IMG/VR virus record: IMGVR_UViG_3300042731_007292 | Span: 1-39,753 of that record | Strand: one strand, 5' to 3' | DNA: 39,753 nt | Source: a virus | Shown: positions 441 to 39,753 of the stretch, piece after piece | Layout: every line of letters starts with the position of its first letter | How positions within the stretch are numbered: position 1 is the first letter of the stretch | Notes under the pieces: model-generated | Database searches by the model: none | What the model was told of the DNA's origin: nothing | Seen by the model: only the letters and a program-made list of their open reading frames with translations | Translations under genes and position numbers: made by a program

Positions 441-687
441 TAAACGATTTGATAAAGAAAATTATACATTTAAAATTAATGGAAAAGATTTAGATTTTTC
501 TGATTCAAGAAAAATAACTATAATAAAAGAAGCCAATTGTATTGACACTATAGAAGTTGAGTTAGTTCTTGATGAACAACAATTAAAAGTTGATAGTATG
601 GCAAGATTGTATTTTATTCTTGGAGATAAAAAATATATTGTAATTGATGTTGAGGATATTAAAAAATGTAATGAGGCGAGCAAATGA
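433..687 (+). CDS. Small hypothetical protein of the modification island
   Basis: An 84-aa protein. The ATG at 433 is chosen because GGTGA lies 7 nt upstream; a TTG at 430 is the alternative. It overlaps the preceding glycosyltransferase, and its TGA overlaps the ATG of the methyltransferase at 684. It looks beta-rich with alternating hydrophobics (TIEVELVLDE, ARLYFILGDKKYIVIDVED), like a small beta-barrel or Ig-like fold. I recognise no family. Its tight coupling on both sides suggests a partner or substrate adaptor for the modifying enzymes (inference). Confidence 0.7.
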   Translation: MISKRFDKENYTFKINGKDLDFSDSRKITIIKEANCIDTIEVELVLDEQQLKVDSMARLYFILGDKKYIVIDVEDIKKCNEASK

Positions 688-1274
688 TTAATAAACGGTT
701 TATGTTTCGAAGCGACGATTTTTCAAATCGTCGCAATGTATTATTTTTTGATGAAGAAATTGGATACTTGCATGAAGAAGGGCATACAATTGATATAGGC
801 TGCGGAACTGGTAACAGCCAGCCATATTTTAATGGGGTTGGACAGTCTTGGACAGGATTAACTTTTAATAAAATAGAATTTGAATGTGCCAAAAGCGAGT
901 TTCCAGATAGACACATTATTTATGGAGATGCTCATGACATCCCAGCCGGAAATAATATTTTTGACAATTTTATTTTTTGGGACAGTCTTGAACATATGGT
1001 TAGTCCATTTATTGCATTGTCAGAAGCAATGAGAGTTTGTAAGCCTATGGCAAAAGGATTAATTTTTATGCCTGGACAAAATTGGCTTGAGCATCATGAC
1101 CACATTCATGTAATGACAGTTCCACAAATGGAGCAATTATTTAGAAAAGTTGGTTTGAAGTGTGTTAAGTCTATTCGGAAAAAATACCCAAACAATCCAC
1201 AATTGTATTGTGAAGGGATGGCAGTTTATCAGGTGCTAAATGACCCTGATTATCAGCCAGAATATAAATTATAA
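684..1274 (+). CDS. Class I SAM-dependent methyltransferase (1)
   Basis: A 196-aa Rossmann-fold methyltransferase. Motif I is TIDIGCGTGNSQ (about residues 35-46). The motif II/III region has HIIYGDAHDIP, followed by FDNFIFWDSLEHM, the usual layout of the Methyltransf_11 group. The late motif LIFMPGQNWLEHHDHIHV is His-rich. The start overlaps the preceding stop as ATGA. A perfect 10-bp hairpin lies inside codons 10-17. It stands between glycosyltransferase genes, so methylation of a sugar or of the glycosylated protein is the likely reaction (inference); N, O or C specificity is not visible. Confidence 0.85.
   Translation: MINKRFMFRSDDFSNRRNVLFFDEEIGYLHEEGHTIDIGCGTGNSQPYFNGVGQSWTGLTFNKIEFECAKSEFPDRHIIYGDAHDIPAGNNIFDNFIFWDSLEHMVSPFIALSEAMRVCKPMAKGLIFMPGQNWLEHHDHIHVMTVPQMEQLFRKVGLKCVKSIRKKYPNNPQLYCEGMAVYQVLNDPDYQPEYKL
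712..734 (+). other. Perfect GC-containing hairpin inside the methyltransferase start
   Basis: GCGACGATTT (712-721) and AAATCGTCGC (725-734) form a 10-bp stem with a 3-nt loop within an AT-rich gene. There is no T-run after it, so it is not a standard terminator. A translational or RNA-processing effect is possible. Confidence 0.6.
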
Positions 1275-1292
1275 GAAATTATAGGAGGAAAT

Positions 1293-1619
1293 ATGAATAA
1301 TTACATAGGTGCGAAAATTATAAAAGCTGAATTATCTAATTTAAAAGATTACAAAATTAAAAAATATGGTAAAGATGCTAAAATCAATGATGGTGATGAA
1401 CAAACGGAATGTTATATAGTAGTTTATCCCCCAATTGGAAATGGTGAAGATAAACCATATCTTTCAATGTCTCCAAAAGATGTTTTTGAAAATGCTTATA
1501 GAGAAGTTCACGAAAATGAAATTGGATTACTTATTGGAAATATTAGTGATGATTTTTATGAAAAATTAAATGAATCAATGAAAGAATATGATGAAACTTT
1601 GAAAAAGTTAGCAGATTAG
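1293..1619 (+). CDS. Hypothetical phage protein, YIGAKI...SPKDVFENAYR type
   Basis: A 108-aa soluble protein with a strong AGGAGG site 6 nt before the ATG. It has an N-terminal NNYIGAKIIKAEL segment and a later LSMSPKDVFENAYREV. From memory this pairing (YIGAKI near the start, a Y-P-D/G stretch, then SPKDVFE.AYR) is common in small uncharacterised Gram-positive phage proteins that lie near structural genes. Function unknown. It is followed 9 nt later by another small phage gene, and the pair looks like ordinary phage cargo embedded in the modification island. Confidence 0.75.
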   Translation: MNNYIGAKIIKAELSNLKDYKIKKYGKDAKINDGDEQTECYIVVYPPIGNGEDKPYLSMSPKDVFENAYREVHENEIGLLIGNISDDFYEKLNESMKEYDETLKKLAD

Positions 1620-1628
1620 GAGGTCAAT

Positions 1629-1844
1629 ATGTTTGATTTAGAAAAATTAAAGAAAAAAATTGATTGTTGTAAAAATCCAGAAGTTATAATTACTGTTGTA
1701 AAACTTCCAACTGGAGCATTAGAAGTAATTACAAATTATCAAGAGCTACAAGGTAAAATTGATTATATTTTAAATGCTTATGATGATAATTTGTGTTTAA
1801 AAACTTGTCCACAGATTAAATTGATGGACTGCATTATTCTATAA
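1629..1844 (+). CDS. Small hypothetical phage protein
   Basis: A 71-aa protein with an AGGAGG site just before the ATG. Its central stretch VIITVVKLPTGALEVITNYQ followed by GKIDYILNAYDDNL matches a pattern I associate with short phage proteins of unknown function. The start and RBS are clear, but no catalytic residues or membrane segment are visible. It is the last gene before the GC-rich structured element at 1854-1935. Confidence 0.75.
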   Translation: MFDLEKLKKKIDCCKNPEVIITVVKLPTGALEVITNYQELQGKIDYILNAYDDNLCLKTCPQIKLMDCIIL

Positions 1845-1853
1845 CCAAAAACT

Positions 1854-1935
1854 TGGGGCTAGACATCGCGAGTCGAAAAATGCGCGAGCGCCCGGCGCAT
1901 TGCCCCATTTTATTCCGGGCTAGAATGGAGGCGCT
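1854..1935 (+). promoter_or_regulatory. GC-rich structured RNA element covering the next gene's RBS
   Basis: This is a GC-rich island in a very AT-rich setting. TGGGGC (1854-1859) pairs with GCCCCA (1902-1907). AATGCGC (1879-1885) pairs with GCGCATT (1895-1901), and GAC/GTC (1862-1864/1872-1874) can make a third arm of a three-way junction. The loop AGCGCC (1887-1892) is complementary to GGCGCT (1930-1935), which overlaps the GGAGG ribosome binding site. Alternatively GCCCGG (1890-1895) can pair with CCGGGC (1915-1920), disrupting the first fold. Mutually exclusive folds touching the RBS look riboswitch-like, but I could match no known class. GGGCTAGA is directly repeated at 1856-1863 and 1917-1924. 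Confidence 0.5.
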
Positions 1936-1937
1936 TT

Positions 1938-2228
1938 ATGAGTGAAAATATTATTGATAATTTAAATAAATTTACATCAAAAAAAGGATTAATTATAAGG
2001 GAACTTCCTTTTAATCCAACTGAGCTAATTATTGACAATGAAACAACTGAGTTGACTCATTCACCAAATATGAGTAGAAATTTTATAAATGGGCACAAAA
2101 CTTCTATAATAGCAAAAGATAAATTAGGTCAAGTATTTGAAATTGAATTATATGATGATACTTATATGGACAGGCTTACAAAAAAAGAAGAAGAAATTAG
2201 CAAAGAATGGACTGGTGACAACAAATGA
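1938..2228 (+). CDS. Small hypothetical protein preceding the radical SAM gene
   Basis: A 96-aa acidic protein with GGAGG (1927-1931) 6 nt before its ATG. Its stop overlaps the ATG of the radical SAM gene (ATGA), so expression of the two is coupled. It has a central GHKTSIIAKDKLGQVFEIEL strand-rich stretch and a charged C-terminal helix (RLTKKEEEISKEW). No family recognised. Because the structured element lies over its RBS, control of this gene would also control the downstream enzyme. Confidence 0.7.
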   Translation: MSENIIDNLNKFTSKKGLIIRELPFNPTELIIDNETTELTHSPNMSRNFINGHKTSIIAKDKLGQVFEIELYDDTYMDRLTKKEEEISKEWTGDNK

Positions 2229-4180
2229 GTATAATTTTAGTTTATCCACCACAAAGAGTTTATGAAGGATACGGACAGGGCAGAGAATGGCCGCCGATTG
2301 GCATTGCTTCAATTGCTGCCAACCTTGGCAAAGAATGTATTTGTTTAGATTTATTTGAATATAATGAAGATAATGCATTAGAAGAAATAATTAAATATCT
2401 GGATGATGATAACAATTTCGTTGGGTTTACAATGTTAACAGAGCAAAGACATGTAGTTCTTGACCTTTGCGAAAAATTAAAAAATCAATTTGTTTGCAAG
2501 GTTCCAGTAACTACAATTGTAGGTGGACCACATCCATCAATTATGTATCAGCAATTAACACAATATCCTTTTCTTGACTACATAGTAGTAGGTGAGGGTG
2601 AAAATGCATTTAGGGATATTGTTTCCGGAAAAGGACCAAGAGTTTTTAAATATTCTTTGGAAAAAGATTTAGATAATTTTAAGCCAGCAATTGAAGGACT
2701 AAAATATTTTAAGACTCCATTAAATTTTAAGGAAGCACCAATTGTATTATCAAGAGGATGTACAGACCATTGTTTTTTTTGCTCAACTAATAAAACATGG
2801 GGAAGATATAGAAGTAGAAGTGCTGTTTGTGTTGCGAATGAAATAGCTAAATACAAAGAATTATATGGAATTGAATATTTTAAATTTCAAGATGATTCAG
2901 CTACAGCAGATAAACAAAAAATAATCGATTTGGGTAATTTAATTGGAAATTTAAAAATTAAATTTGAATTAACCTGCAGGGCAGATCAATTTGATGAAGA
3001 AATGATTAAACAATTAAAAGTTGCAGGATGTGTAAAAGTTGCTTTGGGTGTTGAAACTGGAAATGATAAATTTAGACAAAAAATGGGTAAAAATCTTAAT
3101 AGAAAACTAATGTATGAAAATATAGCACTATTGAAAAAATATGGAATACATGTACATTTATTATTGATCCTTGGTTGGCCTGGTGAAAATGATGAAACAG
3201 TCGAAGATACTTGCCAAATGATTAGAGCTTTGCAGCCAGATAGTTTTTCAAAACTTCCAGGGCTTATGATTGTGCCTGGAACTCCAGTCTATAATCAACT
3301 TAAAAAGCGAAATTACATTGATGATAATTACTGGTTAGAGAATAAACCATGTCCTTATTACACAGATGAAATGATTACCCCAAATAAATTAAACATATGG
3401 CATAATAAAATTAATAACTGTATGGCCATAAAAAAAGTTTTGATAACTGCTGTAGTTAACCAGGATGAAAAAATTTTTGAAGAGTATTTAAAAAAACTTG
3501 GCCAACAAAAACATGATAAAAATATTATTATCAAGAAATTTTTTATTCTTCATAATTCAAGCAATTTAAAAAAATATTTGAATGATGATGAATATATCTG
3601 TGTAAATAATAATCTAAATCATGATTTCAAACATGAATGGAGTCAAACAAAATTTGCATTTTTAGCAGAACAAAAAAATAGAATAGTTGAAAAAGCGTTA
3701 GAAACTGGAGCAGACTATTTATTTTGGGTAGATAGTGATTTAATGATTCATGAAAGAACATTAGATACTTTAATCAGCAGGAATGTAGATATAATTGGGA
3801 ATATATTTTGGACAGAATGGCCGGAAACAACAAAGCAAGGACTTAAAGAAATGCCAAATTGCTGGGATATTGACCAATATAATTTTGTTGAAGGATTTCA
3901 AAAATATAGAGAAAAAGCTGTTTTTTATGTTGGAGGAACTGGAGCGTGTATTCTCGTAAATACAGATGTTTATAAAAATGGAGCAACTTATAATTTTATT
4001 CCTAATGTAAGTTTTAGTATGTGGGAAGATAGAGCTTTTTGTATTAGGGCTACTGTTTTAGGATATCCAATTTTAATTGACACTACTTATCCAGCAAAAC
4101 ATTTATATACTGAAAAAATAGTAAAGGAATATTTCGAAAATGAAATTTGTGATAAAATGGAGGTGGAGAAAGTTGAATAA
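2225..4180 (+). CDS. B12-binding-type radical SAM protein fused to a GT-A glycosyltransferase
   Basis: A 651-aa two-part enzyme. Residues 1-140 look like the cobalamin-binding-like N-domain of class B radical SAM enzymes (ILVYPPQRVYEG, WPPIGIASIAANL, IVGGPHPS, IVVGEGENAF), without an obvious DxHxxG cobalamin motif. The [4Fe-4S] motif is C179-x3-C183-x2-C186 (SRGCTDHCFFCS), followed by a radical SAM TIM barrel (FKFQDDSAT, LGVETGNDKFR, LILGWPGE). From about residue 400 a second domain starts at MAIKKVLITAVV. It carries DSD 503-505 (YLFWVDSDLM), a GGTGACI loop and WEDRAFCIRA, as in GT-A transferases. Radical chemistry on a sugar, or C-methylation coupled to transfer, is the likely role (inference). 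The internal ATG at 3422 lacks an RBS, so this is a true fusion. Confidence 0.88.
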   Translation: MSIILVYPPQRVYEGYGQGREWPPIGIASIAANLGKECICLDLFEYNEDNALEEIIKYLDDDNNFVGFTMLTEQRHVVLDLCEKLKNQFVCKVPVTTIVGGPHPSIMYQQLTQYPFLDYIVVGEGENAFRDIVSGKGPRVFKYSLEKDLDNFKPAIEGLKYFKTPLNFKEAPIVLSRGCTDHCFFCSTNKTWGRYRSRSAVCVANEIAKYKELYGIEYFKFQDDSATADKQKIIDLGNLIGNLKIKFELTCRADQFDEEMIKQLKVAGCVKVALGVETGNDKFRQKMGKNLNRKLMYENIALLKKYGIHVHLLLILGWPGENDETVEDTCQMIRALQPDSFSKLPGLMIVPGTPVYNQLKKRNYIDDNYWLENKPCPYYTDEMITPNKLNIWHNKINNCMAIKKVLITAVVNQDEKIFEEYLKKLGQQKHDKNIIIKKFFILHNSSNLKKYLNDDEYICVNNNLNHDFKHEWSQTKFAFLAEQKNRIVEKALETGADYLFWVDSDLMIHERTLDTLISRNVDIIGNIFWTEWPETTKQGLKEMPNCWDIDQYNFVEGFQKYREKAVFYVGGTGACILVNTDVYKNGATYNFIPNVSFSMWEDRAFCIRATVLGYPILIDTTYPAKHLYTEKIVKEYFENEICDKMEVEKVE

Positions 4181-4751
4181 ATTTTTTACTGTGGATGATG
4201 AAAAACTAAACAATTTAGATGATTTTAAAATTCCTTCAGAATGGTGGTCAAGACCTTCCGAATATGCTTTTGCAGATAAATTTTTGAAAGAAAATGAAAC
4301 AATCATTGACGCTGGTTGTGGTATAGAACATCCATTTAAATTTTATGCAGCTAAAAGATGTAAAAAAGTTTATGCAATAGATAGAGATAAAAGACTTGAA
4401 ACATTAGAAAAAAAAGAAAATATTGAATACATTTGTAGTAATCTTGAATCTTTTAAATTGAAAGAGCAAGTTGATAAAATCTTTTGTATTTCATGTTTAG
4501 AAAGAATTAATAATTTTACACCTGTTTTTTCTAATTTAGCTAAATATATTAAAAATGATGGACAAATAATAATAACAATTGCATATCCTCTTTTAAAACC
4601 TGACATTGTTATACAAGCTTTAAAAGATAAATTTATTGTAGAAAAAAATATAAATTATAAAGAATCTAAAAATGATATATATTCAGCACTATATAAATTA
4701 AAATGTTGTTCAATCATTGCAAAAAGGAGAAAAAAAAATGTTAGCAAATAG
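4173..4751 (+). CDS. Class I SAM-dependent methyltransferase (2)
   Basis: 192 aa from a TTG start at 4173, chosen because GGAGGTGG lies 6-7 nt upstream; the in-frame ATG at 4140 has no RBS. It overlaps the radical SAM gene by 8 nt. Motif I is TIIDAGCGIEHPF, with the acidic ribose-binding position in VYAIDRDKRLE and the substrate-region motif VDKIFCISCLERI. It is shorter and more K/N/I-rich than methyltransferase 1, matching the very AT-rich DNA here. It is probably part of the same modification pathway; target unknown. Confidence 0.8.
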   Translation: MNKFFTVDDEKLNNLDDFKIPSEWWSRPSEYAFADKFLKENETIIDAGCGIEHPFKFYAAKRCKKVYAIDRDKRLETLEKKENIEYICSNLESFKLKEQVDKIFCISCLERINNFTPVFSNLAKYIKNDGQIIITIAYPLLKPDIVIQALKDKFIVEKNINYKESKNDIYSALYKLKCCSIIAKRRKKNVSK

Positions 4752-5322
4752 TCTTGAATGGTGGGATAATGAATTTAAAGAAAATTGGAAAGTTGGCATT
4801 GATGGAAGATTGCAAACTAGTTATTATTGTGCTTTAACATTTTCTTTTTTGCATCAAGAAATATTTAAACAGTTTTTAAATTGTAATAATATATTGGATT
4901 TTGGTTGTGCTTTAGGACAATCAACAAATATGATTTATTCAATTAATAAAAATATTACTGGTTATGATTTTAGCAATGAAGCAATAAAAGAAGCAAAAGA
5001 ATTGTATCCACATATAAATTTTACTGATAAATTTCCAAATGAATTATTTGATATTTGTTATATTAGCAATGTTTTAGAACATTTTTATAACCCATTTGAA
5101 ATATTAACTAAAATTACAAAAATAATAAATAAATTTATAATAATTTTAGTTCCATATGAACAGGAGCCAAATGCATTTCATTTTCATAAATTTTATGATA
5201 ATTATTTTATTGCAAATAAAGTTAATAAATTTTCACAAGTATATCAAGCTATTATTCAAACATATAATATGGAATTAGATGGTGGTAAACAAATTATGTA
5301 TGTACTTGAAAAGGAAGTGTAA
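4738..5322 (+). CDS. Class I SAM-dependent methyltransferase (3)
   Basis: 194 aa. The ATG at 4738 follows AAGGAG with correct spacing; an upstream in-frame ATG at 4717 lacks one. Motif I reads ILDFGCALGQSTNM, the post-II acidic residue is in ITGYDFSNEAI, and motif IV is FDICYISNVLEHFYNPFE, the NVLEH form typical of Methyltransf_11/23 sugar- or small-molecule methyltransferases. It overlaps methyltransferase 2 by 14 nt and ends 3 nt before the connector gene. It is the last enzyme of the island, so modification and head-tail genes share one transcript. Confidence 0.82.
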   Translation: MLANSLEWWDNEFKENWKVGIDGRLQTSYYCALTFSFLHQEIFKQFLNCNNILDFGCALGQSTNMIYSINKNITGYDFSNEAIKEAKELYPHINFTDKFPNELFDICYISNVLEHFYNPFEILTKITKIINKFIIILVPYEQEPNAFHFHKFYDNYFIANKVNKFSQVYQAIIQTYNMELDGGKQIMYVLEKEV

Positions 5323-28195: not shown

Positions 28196-28244
28196 CAACA
28201 TTTTATGCCATTATAAATTAACAATTCCCAAAAGTGTGTCAACT

Positions 28245-28488
28245 TTTCCCATTTTCCCAATGTCGAATTTTACCTCCCATTTTTTTTCCCAAGTTTTTCG
28301 CCTAAGTTTAGACGTTTTCCCAAGTTTCCCAACTTTTTGTTAACCATCGCATATTACACGCGCACACGCGCGCATATAAATAAAGATTTTTTAAAAAGTT
28401 GGGAAACTTGGGAAACATCACTGAAATGCATAAAAAACTTGGGAAAAAAGTTGGGAAGGGAAATTTTAACAGTTGGGAAAATGGGAAA
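28245..28488. other. Probable replication origin: nested inverted iterons on one dyad axis
   Basis: Three perfect inverted pairs are nested: 28316-28338 with 28393-28415 (23 nt), 28282-28298 with 28433-28449 (17 nt) and 28245-28260 with 28473-28488 (16 nt). Centres are 28365.5, 28365.5 and 28366.5. All arms are built from TTTCCCAA on the left and TTGGGAAA on the right. The centre (28355-28378) is a 24-nt strictly alternating purine-pyrimidine run with CGCG blocks, flanked by AT-rich DNA. It lies next to the D5 helicase and AbrB-like genes. This is what an initiator-binding, bidirectional origin could look like; function is inferred. Confidence 0.65.
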
Positions 28489-28689: not shown

Positions 28690-28770
28690 AATTAGATTAT
28701 AGCATAAAAGCCAATAATGTATTTGTTTTCGGAAATTTGCAGGAAATAATTTTTTCAAATCAATTTATGG

Positions 28771-28776
28771 TATAAT
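28771..28776 (+). promoter_or_regulatory. Extended -10 promoter of the structured RNA
   Basis: TGGTATAAT (-10 at 28771-28776) with no good -35, predicting a start near 28783. The same TGGTATAAT form occurs in the terminase promoter and in the two 36-bp repeats. Confidence 0.75.
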
Positions 28777-28782
28777 GATTTA

Positions 28783-28990
28783 GTGTGTAATAGTAGATGT
28801 CATATAGACAATTGGGAGTCGCTGGCTGAAAGGATTTAATTGCTGAGTAGGATGGAAATACCGGTTCAAGTCAGGTTGTGACATTAAAACCAACATAGTA
28901 TAAGGTTGCGTAATACAATGACTATGATATCAAGGATTACGGGCGAGTGTAGCGTCTTATAGGGTTAGCTGGCAAATCCAATACTACACA
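28783..28990 (+). ncRNA. Structured noncoding RNA with pseudoknot and tRNA-like elbow, unknown class
   Basis: About 208 nt with no ORF and a GC content above its surroundings. A closing stem joins TGTGT (28784-28788) and AGTA (28792-28795) to TACTACACA (28982-28990). CATAGT (28894-28899) pairs with ACTATG (28921-28926); the enclosed CGTAAT (28909-28914) pairs with ATTACG (28936-28941), an H-type pseudoknot. GCTGGCTGA (28821-28829) can pair with TTAGCTGGC (28965-28973). A tRNA-like acceptor (28798-28804 with 28877-28883), D arm (GAC/GTC, loop with GGG) and T arm (GTTCAAGTC) are spaced as in tRNA but without an anticodon stem. I could not match it to a known RNA family. Confidence 0.68.
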
Positions 28991-29012
28991 ATTACAGCTT
29001 TAATTTTTATAT

Positions 29013-29041
29013 TTGACTAATTTCAAAAAAATATATATAAT
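29013..29041 (+). promoter_or_regulatory. SigmaA promoter of the rightward accessory operon
   Basis: TTGACT (29013-29018), 17-nt spacer, TATAAT (29036-29041). The start is predicted near 29048, at the 5' edge of the double-hairpin leader. Confidence 0.85.
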
Positions 29042-29050
29042 AAATTTAAG

Positions 29051-29145
29051 TTTATGTGCTTTGACTTGAACCCCCACCAATACAAAACACATAAAAAATA
29101 AGTGTCTTATAAATCTTAGTGGGGGAACTGGATTTATAAGACACT
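29051..29145 (+). promoter_or_regulatory. 5' leader RNA with two hairpins and complementary kissing loops
   Basis: Hairpin 1: TTTATGTG/CACATAAA (29051-29058 with 29088-29095), a mismatch, then TTTG/CAAA, with a 19-nt loop containing CCCCCAC (29071-29077). Hairpin 2: a perfect 15-bp stem (29101-29115 with 29131-29145) whose 15-nt loop contains GTGGGGG (29119-29125). The loops are complementary over 7 bp, so they can kiss, or the same segments can form a pseudoknot. The AAGGAG site follows 8 nt later. This fits a 5' leader controlling translation, stability or ligand response of the operon. Confidence 0.72.
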
Positions 29146-29165
29146 TTTGTGTGAAGGAGATTAAA

Positions 29166-29453
29166 ATGTTAAATAAAAAAGTAATTATAAGAGGAGATAG
29201 AAGTGGAGTTTTTTTTGGAGAGTTAATTAAAAGAACTGGTCAAGAAGTAGAACTTAAAAATTGTAGGCGTTTATGGTATTGGCATGGAGCTGCAAGTATA
29301 TCTCAACTTGCAAAAGAAGGAACAAAAAAACCTGCCAGTTGTAAATTTACAATTACTGTTGAACAAATTATTATTACTGATGCAATTGAAATTATTTTAT
29401 GTACTGATAAGGCAATAAATTCGATCGAAGGTGTTGCAGAATGGATCTATTAA
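29166..29453 (+). CDS. DUF6948-like phage protein
   Basis: 95 aa from ATG 29166 (AAGGAG upstream; in-frame 29151 is inside the RBS). VIIRGDRSGVFFGELIKRTG, VELKNCRRLWYWHGAASISQ and IEIILCTDKAINSIEGVAEW match the small conserved phage family I know as DUF6948. Function unknown. First gene after the kissing-loop leader, often found next to repeat-rich proteins like the following one. Confidence 0.8.
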   Translation: MLNKKVIIRGDRSGVFFGELIKRTGQEVELKNCRRLWYWHGAASISQLAKEGTKKPASCKFTITVEQIIITDAIEIILCTDKAINSIEGVAEWIY

Positions 29454-30112
29454 AAGAATTCTTATTTATTTGTTCTGGCGATGGTGATGGCTATGGCTCT
29501 GGCTCTGGCGATGGCTCTGGCGATGGCGATGGCTCTGGCTCTGGCGATGGCTCTGGCGATGGCGATGGCTCTGGCGATGGCTATGGCTCTGGTTCTGGCT
29601 ATGGCTCTGGCGATGGCGATGGAATTAAGAAAGTTAACAACATGTATTTTTATGAAATTGATGGAATTTTAACAGCAATTAAAACTGTAAAAAAAAGAGA
29701 TGAAACATTTATAGCAAAAGGATATATTTTGAATAATGATTTAAGGTCAGAAAACACAATTATTGTAAAACAAAATAATATATTTGCACATGGAAAAACG
29801 TTAAAAGATGCTATAGCATCACTGAATAATAAATTATTTGAAGTATTAAGCGAAGAAGAGAGAGTCGAAAAGTTTTTAGAAAATTTTGATATTGATAAAA
29901 AATATAAAGGTAATATATTTTTTGAATGGCATGGCAACCTTACAGGAAGCTGCAAACAAGGACGTGAATCTTTTATAAAAAATAATAACATAGATTTAGA
30001 AAAATCATATACTATTTGTGAATTTATTGATTTGACAATTAATGAATATGGTAGCGAAATTATCAAAATGTTAAAAAAAGGATATAATTTACATAGGAGG
30101 AAGCATGTTTAA
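29441..30112 (+). CDS. GDGSG-repeat phage protein
   Basis: 223 aa, overlapping the previous gene, with GAAGGTG as RBS. Residues 13-61 are an uninterrupted G-x repeat in which x is D, S or Y, coded by GGC plus GAT/TCT/TAT hexamers. The remainder is a globular acidic/basic domain (YFYEIDGILTAIKTVKKRDE, FFEWHGNLTGSCKQGRES, CEFIDLTINEYGSEII). Glycine-rich D/S/Y repeats of this kind appear in gut phage proteins near DUF6948; function unknown. The tract could bind calcium, act as a flexible spacer, or vary in length by slippage. Confidence 0.78.
   Translation: MDLLKEFLFICSGDGDGYGSGSGDGSGDGDGSGSGDGSGDGDGSGDGYGSGSGYGSGDGDGIKKVNNMYFYEIDGILTAIKTVKKRDETFIAKGYILNNDLRSENTIIVKQNNIFAHGKTLKDAIASLNNKLFEVLSEEERVEKFLENFDIDKKYKGNIFFEWHGNLTGSCKQGRESFIKNNNIDLEKSYTICEFIDLTINEYGSEIIKMLKKGYNLHRRKHV
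29477..29623 (+). repeat. GC-rich hexamer repeat tract
   Basis: Tandem GGN-GAT, GGN-TCT and GGN-TAT hexamers (for example GGCGATGGCTCT) fill about 147 nt inside an AT-rich gene. Gains or losses of units keep the reading frame. Confidence 0.9.
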
Positions 30113-38647: not shown

Positions 38648-39460
38648 ATGGAAAATAAATTAAAACAAGAAACTACTGTAAGTGAAGCAAGTAGGATTAC
38701 TTTCGGAAATCAAATAGAAAATAAAAATCTAAATGGCAAAAAAATTATATGTATAGGCCTTCCGAATACAGGTTCATTTAATTGGCAAACTGTGCCTTGC
38801 TTGTTAAGTTTGCAAATTCCAAAAGGATATTGTTTAAATTTTAATGTGATGGCAAACTGCCTTGTGTATGATGCGAGAGAAAGCTTAGCAGAATATGCCG
38901 TAAATATAGGAGCTACTCATTTACTGTTTCTGGATAGTGACATGGTTCCTCCAAGCCACACAATTATGTCTTTACATGAAAAAAATGTTGATATAATTTC
39001 AGGTAAAATTTTTCAAAGAAAATATCCATACCAACCATGTTTTTATACCAAGGCTAGATTAACGAAAGATTATAAACCAATTATGGAAGGTCCTTTAGAA
39101 CCTGAATCTTGGCCTGAAAGTGGTGCTCATGGAATGGAAGGTGTTGGGATGGCATGTACTATGATAAAAACATCTATTTTTGAAAAAATTCCAAAACCTT
39201 GGTTTTTTCCTGCTCCTGGTGTTGGAGAGGATTTAGCTTTTTGTATGAAAGCAAGAAAAGCAGGCTTTAAAATATATACTGACTTTAGTGTTGATTGTGG
39301 GCACATAGGTGAATATGTTTGTACTACAGAAAGTTTTAAAATTGCATTAAATGCATGGTTAGAAGATCCGAAAAATAAAGGTAAATTAATTTTTGGAGAG
39401 GAGAATGACAATGTCCTCAATCAAACCAAAAATCATCGCGGGCATGCTGGTCAAAAATGA
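38648..39460 (+). CDS. GT-A glycosyltransferase (GT2/Anp1-like)
   Basis: 270 aa with AAAGGG upstream. A GT-A core: ICIGLPNTGSFNWQT, then ATHLLFLDSDMVPPS with DSD at 96-98, DIISGKIFQRKYPYQPCFYT, and GEDLAFCMKARKAGFKIYTD with the acidic GED at about 193-195 and a following His (CGHIGEY). The DSD region resembles that of the glycosyltransferase half of the radical SAM fusion. The C-terminus overlaps the start of the next glycosyltransferase. It transfers a sugar to an unknown phage or glycan acceptor. Confidence 0.85.
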   Translation: MENKLKQETTVSEASRITFGNQIENKNLNGKKIICIGLPNTGSFNWQTVPCLLSLQIPKGYCLNFNVMANCLVYDARESLAEYAVNIGATHLLFLDSDMVPPSHTIMSLHEKNVDIISGKIFQRKYPYQPCFYTKARLTKDYKPIMEGPLEPESWPESGAHGMEGVGMACTMIKTSIFEKIPKPWFFPAPGVGEDLAFCMKARKAGFKIYTDFSVDCGHIGEYVCTTESFKIALNAWLEDPKNKGKLIFGEENDNVLNQTKNHRGHAGQK

Positions 39461-39753
39461 AGCAGGTAGATGGCTAAGACAAGTTTGTTCAATACTTCAA
39501 GAAGTTTCTGATTGCTTTATTGTTTTGGATGACGGGTCTAGTGATGGGACTGTTAATATTTGTAAAGAATATACAGAACTAAAAAACATTTACGTAAATA
39601 AAGAAAGTCTTTGGGAAACTAATGAAGTTCAAAGAAGAAAAGAATTGTTTAATTTGTGTATGGAACAATCTAGTAATGAAAAAGATTGGATTATGATAAT
39701 TGATGCTGATGAAATAATTTGTAATCATAAAGAGCTGAGATATGTTATGTTGA
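39411..39753 (+). CDS. Family 2 glycosyltransferase, N-terminal part (continues at position 1)
   Basis: ATG 39411 lies 7 nt after AGGAG within the previous gene. The start IIAGMLVKNEAGRWLRQV and LDDGSSDGTVNI are the classic N-terminal GT2 nucleotide-binding signature. The frame reaches the DAD motif inside the 69-bp overlap and continues on the left end of the window to the stop at 440, giving 237 aa on the circle. In-frame junction supports circularity. Confidence 0.9.
   Translation, partial: MSSIKPKIIAGMLVKNEAGRWLRQVCSILQEVSDCFIVLDDGSSDGTVNICKEYTELKNIYVNKESLWETNEVQRRKELFNLCMEQSSNEKDWIMIIDADEIICNHKELRYVML
39685..39753. repeat. Terminal direct repeat, right copy
   Basis: Exact copy of bases 1-69; removal of one copy gives a 39,684-bp circle. 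Confidence 0.95.

Follow-up and report, generated by a model that had tools for sequence, protein, structure and literature searches.

The intergenic segment that begins at position 28783 most likely encodes a tRNA-derived RNA that is under selection. To the fuller reading, in which the locus is a non-decoding tRNA mimic descended from tRNA-Thr and expressed from its own promoter, we assign an even chance. The segment lies in the window (the whole stretch of DNA analysed), a 39,753 bp IMG/VR record of 28.4% GC that is probably a complete genome because it carries a 69-bp direct terminal repeat at 1-69 and 39685-39753. The sole relative found is IMGVR_UViG_3300014255_000025 (L010), a 9.4-kb linear contig with an 85% identical terminase that carries the RNA in the same intergenic region; the RNA is known from these two phage sequences only.

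The window resembles the genome of a small tailed phage: replication genes (primase, a Dda/RecD-like helicase and Erf) run leftward, a module of endolysin, terminase, portal, capsid and tape-measure genes runs rightward, and the RNA locus occupies the intergenic region where these two blocks diverge. In a phage collection the nearest terminases share ~56% identity and belong to phages of Gram-positive hosts. Among the window proteins scanned none was recognised as an integrase, and an attP site in a tRNA gene was rejected for that reason. Positions 684-5322 and 38648-39460 encode three methyltransferase-domain proteins, a B12-binding radical-SAM protein that carries an Anp1-like glycosyltransferase part, and another glycosyltransferase; this is a modification cassette, unusual for a 40-kb phage.

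The coordinates of the RNA features and of a neighbouring leader are collected in the table. The sequence-only reading had given the RNA its own promoter, and TGGTATAAT is indeed a perfect extended -10 element (TGNTATAAT), although 12 such sites occur genome-wide; a -35 element for this promoter at 28768-28776 was looked for and not found, nor was a terminator found for the RNA starting at 28783. L010 has TAGTATAAT at the place of TGGTATAAT, and the promoter block 28731-28782 is 92% identical between the two phages.

Features of the tRNA-like locus and of the neighbouring late-operon leader in the window.
Feature	Position	Strand	Remarks
Extended -10 box TGGTATAAT	28768..28776	+	predicted start near 28783
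5' leader GTGTGTAATAGTAGA	28783..28797	+	14/15 bases same in L010
tRNA-like domain	28798..28884	+	87 nt; discriminator position 28884
Acceptor	28798-28804/28877-28883	+	extendable to 28796-28804/28877-28885, i.e. 7-9 bp
D-arm GAC-AATTGGGA-GTC	28807..28820	+	A14, A15, G18G19, A21
Replacement of anticodon arm/variable loop	28821..28859	+	39 nt; by sequence inspection
T-arm ACCGG-TTCAAGT-CAGGT	28860..28876	+	acceptor 3' strand immediately after
3' extension	28891..28995	+	pseudoknot, 3' closing strand, 9-bp helix 3' strand; absent in L010
Pseudoknot strands	CATAGT 28894-28899 / ACTATG 28921-28926; CGTAAT 28909-28914 / ATTACG 28936-28941		
9-bp long-range helix	GCTGGCTGA 28821-28829 / TTAGCTGGC 28965-28973		includes G-U pairs
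Leader hairpins	29051-29095 and 29100-29146		

As in a tRNA, the acceptor (TGTCATA paired with TGTGACA) is followed by TA, corresponding to U8-A9 (28805-28806), all of it the same in both phages, and the conserved loop bases of the D- and T-arms (A14, G18G19, A21 and TTCAAGT) are present. The T-stem has one G-A mismatch in the window copy and is a perfect CCGGT in L010. The decoding arm is missing: a 5-bp stem with a 7-nt loop can be formed in no register of 28821-28859, and GGATG lacks its anticodon-stem partner. The best local stem in this interval (28822-28826/28842-28847) encloses a 15-nt loop, pairs CU(G/A)GC with GCU(G)AG, and contains one A-U to G-U change. No CCA is encoded, ARAGORN calls no tRNA at the locus, neither ARAGORN nor Rfam reports a tmRNA, and the Rfam tRNA entry RF00005 gives 12.3 bits for L010 against a gathering threshold of 29 and no match for the window. 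A class II tRNA with a long variable arm would fit the length of 87 nt but was rejected, as the anticodon arm cannot form. The folding energy of the domain is ordinary (z of -1.15 and 0.05). A descriptor composed after the site was seen, from generic tRNA features only (a 7-bp acceptor and U8, GG and A21 in the D-arm, and TTCRA in a T-arm that leads directly into the acceptor strand), yields a single match in each of the four sets scanned: the window, L010, 1.4 Mb of other loci, and 6 Mb of simulated window-like sequence.

The connection to tRNA-Thr(GGU) emerged from a covariance model (R1), built from the two phage RNAs only and run over Bacillota genomes, first a sample of 300 and then one of 399 that partly overlaps it; the E-values of such home-made models are rough. 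Seven of the eight genome matches examined are tRNA-Thr(GGU) genes, the eighth being a non-tRNA with broken pairs, and the bacterial matches were rejected as copies of the phage RNA because they are true tRNA-Thr genes. When 28 tRNAs from fetched loci were scored, all 11 Thr tRNAs came out above the other isotypes, in a sample that is small and biased since the loci were fetched with the same model. Bacterial tRNA-Thr(GGU) and the phage RNA share acceptor length, U8, D-arm, T-arm and a core of the form GGATGGA...ACCGGTTCAAGTCCGGT; unlike tRNA-Thr(GGU), the phage RNA has no anticodon arm or CCA, has extra nucleotides between the D- and T-arms, and is changed at three acceptor pairs and at 15/48.

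When the phage RNAs are aligned jointly with tRNA-Thr, 98.6% of cells pair, compared with 26-47% in a control with the partners slid by 1-3 columns, and 11 of 22 pairs are changed on both sides. Acceptor pairs 1, 2 and 3 are G-C, C-G and C-G in tRNA-Thr, whereas the phage RNA has U-A, G-C and U-A; at positions 15/48 the tRNA-Thr sequences have G/C and the phage RNA has A/U. The first acceptor pairs, altered here, are identity elements for threonyl-tRNA synthetase. Judged from the aligned sequences, the changes relative to tRNA-Thr are matched in the acceptor and D-stem, and probably in the 15-48 tertiary pair too; such changes favour an origin from tRNA-Thr and selection acting on the tRNA body. 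This evidence is good but inconclusive, because the joint alignment is fitted to the structure and includes only two phage sequences.

Conservation between the two phages peaks over the tRNA-like segment. Positions 28783-28890 are identical to L010 at 104 of 108 sites (96.3%), the best-conserved 108-nt window of the aligned 7 kb; elsewhere identity is 71-83% in noncoding DNA and 82-86% in most of the coding genes measured, and the binomial P for 104/108 against 83% is 2e-5. Recent exchange, rather than selection, could also be the source of this identity. The following 105 nt (28891-28995) are cleanly missing from L010. The matches from similarity searches of phages and plasmids are tRNA T-arms or due to chance, none of them a homologue, and DNA-pattern searches over viral contigs returned L010 only, besides unrelated or coding matches. 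A further contig with an 85% identical terminase (L009) stops short of the RNA region, and the remaining terminase, primase and DUF6948 relatives searched are distant and none carries the RNA.

The sequence-only reading had treated 28783-28990 as one closed, pseudoknotted RNA of about 208 nt, and several of its observations were borne out. The GC content of the segment is 39.9% against 28.4% genome-wide, a value reached by only 0.9% of 208-nt windows; no ORF of at least 50 aa overlaps it; and an Rfam scan of the window gave 0 gathering-level matches, with nothing credible in Rfam 15 when relaxed to E up to 10. A stand-alone RNA gene with a promoter of its own and outside the Rfam families is supported, since the promoter and the first 108 nt together form the stretch best conserved between the two phages; the 208-nt architecture is not. 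Strands for the proposed closing helix exist (TGTGTA at 28784-28789 and TACTACACA at 28982-28990), and at least 6 Watson-Crick bp arise there in just 2% of dinucleotide shuffles, but the 3' strand is absent in L010. Those of the H-type pseudoknot are likewise present, but a 6+6 bp pseudoknot arises in 13% of shuffles and this one is absent in L010; the 9-bp helix also has both strands in the window, but the observed number or more of 9-bp long-range helices occurs in 18% of shuffles, and its 3' strand is missing in L010. The minimum free energy of the 208 nt is ordinary (z of -0.57 against shuffles), and the 3' half alone (28886-28990) folds with a z of +0.11.

Every helix of this 208-nt fold uses a strand within 28891-28995, so that its stems, sought as kept or covarying in homologues, lack strands in L010, and the fold cannot be the conserved function. 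A homologue in which the stems do not covary is the outcome that the sequence-only reading had itself named as refuting. The tRNA-like 5' half had been missed. One could suppose that the closed 208-nt RNA is nonetheless real, with the tRNA-like part as one of its domains and L010 as a truncated copy; the GC enrichment extends to the 3' half, in a genome of 28% GC, and the closing helix is rare among shuffles. Against this, L010 is without the 3' half yet retains the 5' half together with its closing strand, and the pseudoknot and long helix are near chance levels with an ordinary folding energy, and we regard it as unlikely. The suggestion of a decoy, one option in that earlier account, is still a live one.

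The main rival is that the locus is a decaying phage tRNA-Thr gene, a pseudo-tRNA with no present function, to which we give a real but minority chance. It would explain why a canonical anticodon arm and CCA are absent and why ARAGORN makes no call, and a T-stem mismatch is already found in the window copy; decay sits poorly, however, with 96.3% identity in a setting where neighbouring noncoding DNA has 71-83%, with a promoter block that is conserved too, and with differences from tRNA-Thr in the acceptor and D-stem that are matched rather than broken pairs. The opposite view, that the tRNA still works and its anticodon arm is merely unusual (processed, for example), draws on the intact acceptor, D- and T-arms but is barely plausible given that a 7-nt loop fits no register, GGATG has no stem partner, and CCA is absent. 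An RNA linked to an origin of replication, or a regulatory RNA acting by base pairing, is highly improbable. Just upstream, between the divergent gene blocks, ten copies of TTGGGAA/TTCCCAA lie within 255 bp (28225-28479), the left copies in one orientation and the right copies in the other, and this cluster looks like a replication origin; L010 nevertheless keeps the RNA though unrelated sequence replaces the cluster. No antisense match in the phage exceeds 12 nt, where shuffles give 11-14, and an antisense sRNA was rejected since complementarity is not in excess. A hidden peptide was also rejected, the frames being broken in both phages. At the site of the repeat cluster, L010 2230-2310 contains CCCACTTCTATAAGTGGTGAGTAGTTCAC, which we take to resemble the right-end hairpin of an IS200/IS605 element.

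Downstream of the tRNA-like RNA there is a second RNA element, a kissing-loop leader, which is better supported than the tRNA-like RNA itself. A strong sigma-70 promoter (TTGACT-17-TATAAT, 11/12 match) at 29013-29041 is followed, just after the predicted start, by a two-hairpin leader at 29048-29147 that opens the late-operon transcript. The loops of the hairpins are complementary (CCCCCAC 29071-29077 and GTGGGGG 29119-29125) and can form a 7-bp kissing loop. Folding z is -5.25 in the window and -5.46 in L010, where the region 29013-29147 corresponds to 2642-2777, and all 38 of 38 pairs hold in both phages, 6 of them by double changes, one of which lies in the kissing helix (C-G to U-A). With two stem-loops just after a promoter, the leader recalls the HK022 putL antiterminator RNA (PMC9378689), and by this analogy it is a candidate antiterminator-like (put-like) leader of the late operon; it could equally well be a leader for RNase III or for mRNA stability. 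Searches for relatives beyond L010 found none that is convincing. The first late-operon gene (29166-29453) encodes a DUF6948 protein (Pfam PF22253), relatives of which are present in many unrelated phages. The ORF at 29441-30112 has a long tandem repeat of the GGC-GAT/GGC-TCT type near its start (29476-29625), which is far shorter in L010.

Several known RNAs bear comparison with the tRNA-like RNA. Phage-encoded tRNAs with anticodon-loop changes have been proposed to counter tRNA-targeting defences (PMC10264068), and are similarly phage-borne, tRNA-derived and altered at the anticodon loop; they stay recognisable decoding tRNAs, whereas the RNA described here cannot decode, and losing the anticodon loop entirely would, by analogy, be a further step. 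The Streptococcus sRNA SpF41 (RF02435) shares a tRNA-like layout of acceptor and T-arm, and among Rfam families it is the best match of L010, though a weak one (16.9 bits, E 1.7, far short of the gathering threshold of 52); in S. pneumoniae RNase Z is pulled down with F41 (PMC7196914). SpF41 is chromosomal, though, and its Rfam model adds a 3' stem-loop and then a U-run not found in the phage RNA. Viral tRNA-like structures mimic the elbow and acceptor through another topology (PMC4810234), but the plant-virus elements are 3' ends of RNA genomes, unlike the phage RNA. A tmRNA would have a tag ORF and a long P2/pseudoknot region, and the phage RNA has no match to it in Rfam or ARAGORN.

The most economical reading is that the RNA is a non-decoding mimic, trimmed by the host tRNA machinery and acting as a decoy or bait; we infer this from its inability to decode and from its retention of only those parts that elbow-recognising factors read. 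The extended -10 promoter would give rise to a phage RNA of ~100 nt descended from tRNA-Thr(GGU), in which the acceptor, D- and T-arms were kept, so that the L-shaped elbow would be retained, and the decoding arm was lost. The part kept is that read by RNase P, RNase Z, T-box RNAs and modification enzymes (PMC4810234). RNase P may trim before 28798 and RNase Z after 28884, and in the window phage 3' processing would also free the downstream 105-nt extension. During infection the mature RNA would then occupy or sponge host enzymes that handle or attack tRNAs. That a dsDNA phage has in this way turned a host tRNA-Thr into an anticodon-less mimic that sponges or baits a tRNA-handling enzyme or a tRNA-attacking defence enzyme is a tentative proposal, well short of probable.

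Codon supply and the replacement of cleaved tRNAs are the usual explanations for the tRNAs that phages carry. For a conserved elbow and acceptor without an anticodon neither is possible, and if expressed this RNA would point to a mimicry of tRNA that targets RNase P/Z, modification enzymes or defences directed against tRNAs. Neither ARAGORN nor Rfam at its thresholds detects RNAs of this kind, and more of them may therefore be overlooked.
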